Shown in pieces: positions 2,528 through 5,642 of a stretch of 64,000 nt of DNA. The translations under genes and the position numbers were made by a program. Within the stretch, counting starts at the first letter, position 1. Every line of letters starts with the position of its first letter. This stretch comes from Nitrospirales bacterium (GTDB taxonomy: Bacteria > Nitrospirota > Nitrospiria > Nitrospirales > UBA8639). The DNA lies in assembly GCA_012270585.1 (NCBI GenBank), contig JAAXIB010000088.1, forward strand, positions 64,419 through 128,418. The letters run 5' to 3'. A model generated the notes under the pieces. It saw only the letters and a program-made list of their open reading frames with translations, was not told the origin of the DNA and ran no database searches.

Positions 2528-5642
<3,115 letters not shown>

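Follow-up and report, generated by a model that had tools for sequence, protein, structure and literature searches.

The window analyzed here, a stretch of 64,000 nucleotides (64 kb) from a Nitrospirales bacterium, carries the guaA gene for the glutamine-hydrolysing GMP synthase and, directly upstream of it, an open reading frame (ORF) that was interpreted as encoding IMP dehydrogenase. For the guaA ORF a later start is also possible, which would shorten the product to 525 aa. A short palindrome lies within guaA, and two further copies of this element are located elsewhere in the window (Table 1).

Table 1. Features of the guaA locus and REP copies in the 64 kb window
Feature	Coordinates	Strand	Evidence or remark
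guaA, GMP synthase (glutamine-hydrolysing), 541 aa, TTG start	2528..4153	-	ORF and NF000848 profile, 767.7 bits
ORF of 489 aa directly upstream of guaA, IMP dehydrogenase (guaB)	4146..5615	-	ORF list; name assigned by eye
Tract present where the empty site has 5 host bases; codes for RAGTQARPY and contributes two bases to the following codon (I)	3249..3277	-	Alignment with 10 empty congeners
GTAG foot of the guaA REP, on the strand opposite to the gene	3251..3254	+	
Palindrome of the guaA REP, GGGCGGGC-CTGCGT-GCCCGCCC, stem 8 bp, loop 6 nt	3255..3276	+	
Second REP copy, GTAGGGGCGAACCTATGTGTTCGCCC (palindrome 38605-38626), foot pointing to the 38631 copy	38605..38630	-	
Third REP copy, GTAAGGGCGGACCTGCGTGTCCGCCC, its foot facing that of the 38605 copy, beyond the ORF ending at 38592	38631..38656	+	

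The original prediction described bases 3251-3277 (GTAGGGGCGGGCCTGCGTGCCCGCCCT) as part of an otherwise intergenic palindrome that had been inserted into guaA and is 24/27 identical to bases 38631-38657 (GTAAGGGCGGACCTGCGTGTCCGCCCT). Reading of both stretches confirmed this identity value, and the residues RAGTQARPY, encoded on the minus strand, indeed occupy positions 293-301 of the 541-aa GMP synthase. The 38631 copy and the adjoining copy at 38605 are both located beyond the ORF ending at 38592. Searches for the 22-nt palindrome allowing up to three mismatches returned two occurrences in the window as compared to a mean of 0.01 in shuffled sequences. The guaA copy fits the REP pattern at 26/26 positions without a mismatch, and its GTAG immediately precedes the 8-bp stem with 6-nt loop, which is the arrangement of foot and hairpin seen in REPs of the type linked to REP-associated tyrosine transposases (RAYTs). 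For the gene-strand 27-mer, RNA folding predicted a free energy of -19.4 kcal/mol.

In order to follow the element across genomes, the source genome (G000; 2.50 Mb, 89 contigs) and its congeners (G001 to G013; n=14 including G000) were screened. The pattern GGGCGRRC-N6-GYYCGCCC occurs at 16 exact places in the whole G000 genome, and GTAGGGGCGRRCCNNYGTGYYCGCCC, which includes the GTAG foot, matches at 36 places with up to three mismatches; the reversed control yielded no match in either case. At the same threshold, GTAGGGGCGRRCCNNYGTGYYCGCCC was found at 37 places in G001, 12 in G003, 45 in G004, 27 in G005, 11 in G006, 34 in G008, 1 in G009, 27 in G010, 44 in G011, 34 in G012 and 31 in G013, with none in G002 and G007, i.e., the element is dispersed with 0-45 copies per congener. 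Reversed-pattern controls gave zero matches in the congeners except for G002 (2) and G007 (1). Moreover, stem changes are compensated, as is evident from the arm variants GGGCGGGC/GCCCGCCC, GGGCGGAC/GTCCGCCC and GGGCGAAC/GTTCGCCC, and the foot is GTAG in most copies among the matches listed. The guaA segment is a GTAG-tagged REP and belongs to a dispersed family.

Comparison of orthologous guaA genes revealed REP DNA between the motifs FRSF(HF) and RMVDAS in 4/14 congeners (G000, G001, G008, G013), the site being empty in the remaining ten. In close congeners the empty site reads CGG-[C/T]A[G/A]TT-GAA[G/A]TG on the GTAG strand, and the corresponding region of G000 reads CGG-AT-GTAG...CCCT-GAAGTG. 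Relative to the empty sites, 29 nt (3249-3277) have replaced 5 nt in G000, resulting in a net gain of 24 nt or eight residues; the insertion had originally been given as exactly 27 bases. G001 has the same left junction, a long loop and a net gain of 48 nt, G008 a short form in which GAAGTG is lost too (net +18 nt), and G013 a long form that has likewise lost GAAGTG (net +42 nt). Depending on the carrier, the stretch encodes between 10 and 18 residues, and G000 and G008 have retained an intact short palindrome.

The guaA survey comprised 117 genomes, of which the last seven, featuring weak or partial matches only, were left out. No insert was present in 16 further relatives of the family and order that were aligned. 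For 80 more relatives the lengths of the matches were compared, and 77 of these were shorter than the query by at least 5 residues over the aligned range; the remaining three (G050, G053, G056) were read directly and have an empty guaA, as do five more of the 80 that were also read. Among the best 80 GTDB loci of a longer list, 79 had a readable frame, and the insert was encountered in L052 alone, which corresponds to G013. The congeneric species are approximately 90% alike in GuaA. The congeners with 0, 0 and 1 REP places (G002, G007 and G009) do not carry the nine residues, and none of the unrelated GuaA proteins that were read contains the insert. Wide conservation of the insert residues was ruled out by the empty GuaA in the relatives and GTDB loci covered by this survey.

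An AlphaFold model of GuaA (36 rows, mean pLDDT 82.7) aligned with solved bacterial and fungal GMP synthases, e.g., 7sbc and 1gpm, at TM values of 0.75-0.83. The Coxiella structure 3tqi, representing the best sequence match among the solved structures, has 7 residues fewer at the insert point. In the model, coil conformation predominates in the new residues (278-287), which follow a helix (264-274) and lead into a strand (286-291). Values of pLDDT below 50 were obtained at positions 278-282, and also at 339-347, 351-362 and 520-526, so that low pLDDT is not peculiar to the insert. In this fold, loops that connect a helix to the following strand of a parallel sheet are found on the face opposite the nucleotide site, and the insert loop would accordingly be located away from the active site. 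The guaA gene is essential in the absence of guanine. It is under purifying selection in carriers and non-carriers, with dN/dS values (insert columns excluded) of 0.083-0.114 for the four pairs with G000 or G001 and of 0.067-0.115 over all 13 pairs. A second full guaA was not found in G000, where one full-length match and three further, weak matches were obtained. Judged from these sequence data, the insert probably does little harm and the enzyme would still work. Of the initial view that a mobile palindrome is tolerated in guaA as nine codons, the tolerated in-frame presence of a dispersed palindrome was supported, whereas the nine-codon insertion has to be replaced by a net gain of eight residues.

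REP-bearing loci were furthermore evaluated with a codon-usage gene caller, which is a rough tool. The loci had been chosen for holding REPs and are complete for G000 and G010 and partial for the other genomes (least so for G013, G004, G011 and G012). Among 197 distinct copies scored, 18 are in frame inside a coding stretch, 5 of them in RAYT genes, 19 are at an edge, 2 between coding stretches and 158 other; both copies classed between coding stretches were intergenic on inspection. No clear frame-breaking copy was seen among the 197 copies scored by this rough caller. In G000, 9 of 36 copies are contained in a called ORF, 8 extend across an ORF end and 19 are outside; 5 of the 9 are well inside guaA, recG, glyS, rseP and a methyltransferase gene, and 4 within the first 31 codons. 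The corresponding numbers for the 27 copies of G010 are 3, 3 and 21. In-frame REPs of the guaA family were found in recG, rseP, glyS, the linker of the methyltransferase, and dus-like and glcD-like genes. NCBIfam models matched RecG, GlyS and RseP above cut-off, and DusB and GlcD below it. One and the same 27 bp gives VGADLRVRP, RADTQVRPY or GGHAGPPL, depending on frame and strand. A copy of G001 in L245 lies in a host gene that appears gyrase-like by eye.

Empty orthologues were found for recG, rseP and glcD. At the recG site, REP DNA with coinciding junction positions is present in G000, G004, G005 and G012, and the site is empty in G001, G002, G006, G007, G009, G010, G011 and G013 (unreadable in G003 and G008). 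For rseP the site is filled in G000 and G001, and 11 others are without REP, no orthologue having been obtained for G012. The inserts in rseP of G000 and of G001 are counted as a single event rather than two, since the right junction is the same and the left one differs by 3 nt. In glyS, REP-derived DNA was recognized by eye at one site in 11/14 congeners (all except G002, G007 and G009), its forms being short or long in both clades and much decayed in G013. Further expanded forms occur at the glyS site of G001, G004 and G011 (L281-L294), all with open frames.

Filled and empty sites were compared from flank to flank, applying filters (78% identity; 90 nt; a gap of -15 to 20; an empty partner free of REPs). 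These filters were set after a looser first comparison, in which many pairs were confused by neighbouring repeats and gaps ranged from about -39 to +15 among the pairs listed. The filtered comparison resulted in 10 pairs, one of which (gap 19) was dropped because the partner classed as empty resembles a remnant. The nine rows kept represent six to seven events, as recG and rseP each appear twice and guaA perhaps accounts for one or two. In all nine rows the empty site is 2-11 bases longer than expected if the 26-mer had been inserted cleanly, and host loss amounts to 5-11 bases where junctions are readable by eye; two of the nine rows are outside called genes. The in-frame pairs had been picked for being in frame, and multiples of three therefore represent no separate evidence; a figure of 1 in 729 was set aside for this reason. 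It might be supposed that REPs move by replacement, a hairpin being swapped in for approximately 5-11 host bases at preferred positions, with recurrent hits at identical positions in different lineages (guaA, recG) and loop exchange by REPs already in place (short and long forms at one site in guaA and glyS), which would make such sites refillable cassette slots in conserved genes. This generalization is considered rather doubtful.

RAYT genes associated with the guaA-type REP, which is present both before and inside the gene, were found in G005, G011 and G012. In-frame REPs are located between the HuH and Y motifs in RAYT genes of G005, G011, G012 and G013, as is characteristic of subclass 2.4. 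RAYT genes with in-frame REPs between the HUH motif and the tyrosine region were noted at L274:3290-3913, L273:3259-3888, L272:2415-3020 and L275:3593-4204. Moreover, G013 has RAYTs with other palindromes, G008 has a RAYT without a guaA-type REP nearby, and G009 has a partial RAYT that holds the single REP of this genome. In G000 only a truncated RAYT-like frame at contig C56 was detected, next to another repeat and below the PF01797 cut-off. The PF01797 family search gave no match in G005 and G012, although both have insert-bearing RAYTs, and a protein search was therefore used instead. For a cognate RAYT, this protein search returned no match in 9/14 congeners, including G000, G001, G008 and G004, the latter with 45 REP copies. 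Curated profiles match REP-split RAYTs in two pieces, with NF047646 below cut-off, so that annotation searches can miss such genes.

The RAYT protein of G005 has a match in 59/295 drawn Nitrospirota genomes. Among 33 RAYT loci, 27 have full frames and 6 do not; these loci are the best matches to an insert-bearing query, and the sample accordingly favours such genes. A hairpin of at least 7 bp within 70 codons after HUH was present in 24/27 full frames as compared to 11% of base-shuffled windows, and an exact-arm copy was found in the examined flanks of 7/27.

The number of insertion events in guaA was addressed by means of a tree built without the insert columns. The label filled or empty needs four changes on this tree, at least two of which are forced by starred branches, and most inner branches are weak. 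The four carriers as one clade were rejected (p-AU 7e-14), as was a clade of G001 and G013, which both have long forms (p-AU 7.5e-7); clades of G000 with G001 (p-AU 0.39) and of G008 with G013 (p-AU 0.27) were not rejected. The right junctions of the guaA inserts differ between these two clades, GAAGTG being kept or lost, which fits one event in each clade. All four carriers have the left junction CGG-AT in front of the foot (GTAG, in G013 GCAG) in common; the bases AT of this junction are lacking from the empty site and are not a constant part of REP copies, and this common extra AT fits one old event. A single insertion in the ancestor shared by the 11 closest species, seven of which later received empty alleles by recombination, would be in line with this left junction, with the right junction that the rseP inserts of G000 and G001 have in common, with the two clades not rejected and with recG junctions at the same positions in both clades. 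It is opposed by the rejected carrier clade and the required label changes, by the unlike right junctions, and by the identity beside the insert, which shows no rise between carriers. Furthermore, the empty sites match the outgroups and were hence not made by excision alone; as excision cannot restore lost codons, a single event needs allele replacement in all seven species. Overall, one old insertion is a serious candidate that is nevertheless judged to have somewhat less than even odds. The patchy occupancy of guaA and recG in two clades may reflect either repeated targeting or allele exchange after old insertions.

A function could also explain why the guaA REP was kept, either as an mRNA hairpin tuning guaA translation or as a loop making a new contact. 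The strong hairpin, the palindrome that remained intact in G000 and G008, and the REP-derived DNA at one glyS site in most congeners agree with this idea; however, guaA does without the REP in ten congeners, the encoded stretch is variable in length, and the same REP family is found in unrelated proteins, which renders a function improbable. An artefact of assembly or binning might be suspected because most genomes are draft assemblies of many contigs, but the insert is present in four different genomes in a form of its own in each, inside a contig and an open frame, and such an origin is regarded as very improbable. Even less credit is given to an ordinary variable GuaA loop that resembles a REP by chance: loop length can vary at a helix-strand junction, yet the pattern fit is complete, only 0.01 matches are expected in the window, and among the GuaA proteins read the insert is confined to the four congeners. 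Chance resemblance was thus ruled out by the pattern fit and the shuffle count.

The guaA segment is therefore best explained as a GTAG-tagged REP, i.e., a non-autonomous mobile hairpin, that entered in frame, replaced few host bases, is tolerated in a loop and most likely owes its spread to a RAYT acting in trans; a probability of roughly 80% is assigned to this reading. Entry would have occurred in one or more ancestors of the four congeneric species. The RAYT (TnpA-REP) transposase most likely involved would be of the subclass 2.4 type and would recognise the GTAG foot and the hairpin in single-stranded DNA, intact cognate genes surviving in some congeners, with none found in G000. Retention of the REP in guaA would be due to a net length difference divisible by three, to the lack of a stop codon in the frame used, and to the location of the added residues in a loop of the ATP-pyrophosphatase domain, between a helix and a strand, where they would cause little damage. 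Several results count against this explanation. RAYT presence does not track copy number today, since no match was obtained in 9/14 congeners, including three of the four guaA carriers and the copy-richest genome (G004), the host bases lost in the nine filtered pairs are unlike the clean insertion predicted for the IS200/IS605 type, and low pLDDT is also seen outside the insert.

Elements of this kind are already known. GTAG REPs were defined by Di Nocera 2013 (PMC3733652), where examples inside genes are listed for several species and two Xanthomonas species are reported to have different REPs at nearly the same place in recB. The guaA element resembles GTAG REPs in its GTAG foot, short stem and dispersed copies, some of which are within conserved genes. 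It differs in that the host gene is guaA in Nitrospirota (the word Nitrospira is absent from the main text of that paper), and in that filled and empty orthologous sites can be compared base by base within one genus, including the loss of host bases and the occurrence of short and long loops at one site. REPs in frame inside subclass 2.4 tnpA-REP genes were reported by Quentin 2018 (PMC6006769); in contrast to these, the guaA copy has no RAYT nearby, and a cognate one was not detected in G000. The palindromic elements of Rickettsia, to which the original prediction likened the insert, are also palindromes read in frame inside proteins, but they occur in another phylum, and those of R. conorii (RPEs) end in CGTC, a class without dedicated transposase (PMC3733652), whereas the guaA element has a GTAG foot. 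The likeness to the Rickettsia type was thus not upheld, nor was the novelty of in-frame palindromes outside Rickettsia, as GTAG and CGTC REPs had been listed in 2013 inside genes of several species belonging to other phyla (PMC3733652). Earlier REP literature includes Nunvar 2010 (PMC2817692), how REPs spread is treated as an open question by Corneloup 2021 (PMC8266576), and counts for Nitrospira moscoviensis were given by RepRanger 2025 (PMC12306157). In the literature outside subscription papers, no report on a REP in guaA or on filled and empty REP footprints in Nitrospirota was found.

The kind of element is thus established, and the set of filled and empty orthologous sites is less usual. 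As the REP copies are located in conserved codons, the empty sites are unusually certain, and junctions and lost bases can be read exactly. The genus offers filled and empty sites in guaA, recG, rseP and glcD together with the occupied slot in glyS; cognate transposase genes in some congeners, with none found in others, make it a useful comparative setting for studying REP spread. Moreover, the case illustrates how proteins gain short segments, including the linker of a two-domain enzyme. In the latter, a glycine/sarcosine N-methyltransferase domain (residues 5-263, above cut-off) and a sarcosine/dimethylglycine domain (282-551, below cut-off) have the REP between them. In this gene (L210:1178-2836, contig C18 of G000) the REP encodes VGAGLCARP between the two methyltransferase domains in a single frame, and it may have made or bridged the domain fusion.

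Further repeats were noted beside the guaA-type REP. Long-loop REPs (L018, L026, L263, L284, L289, L293) contain a second repeat of the type CCTGCCCTGAGCGNAGCGAANGG, so that one repeat seems to be nested within another, and stretches similar to the CCTGCCCTGAGCGNAGCGAANGG-type repeat stand alone in the window at 26590 and near 2471. The truncated RAYT-like frame in contig C56 of G000 (L016:1200-1500) lies beside another palindrome, GTCGGGTTACGCC..GGCTAACCCGAC, which suggests a second REP family in this genome.
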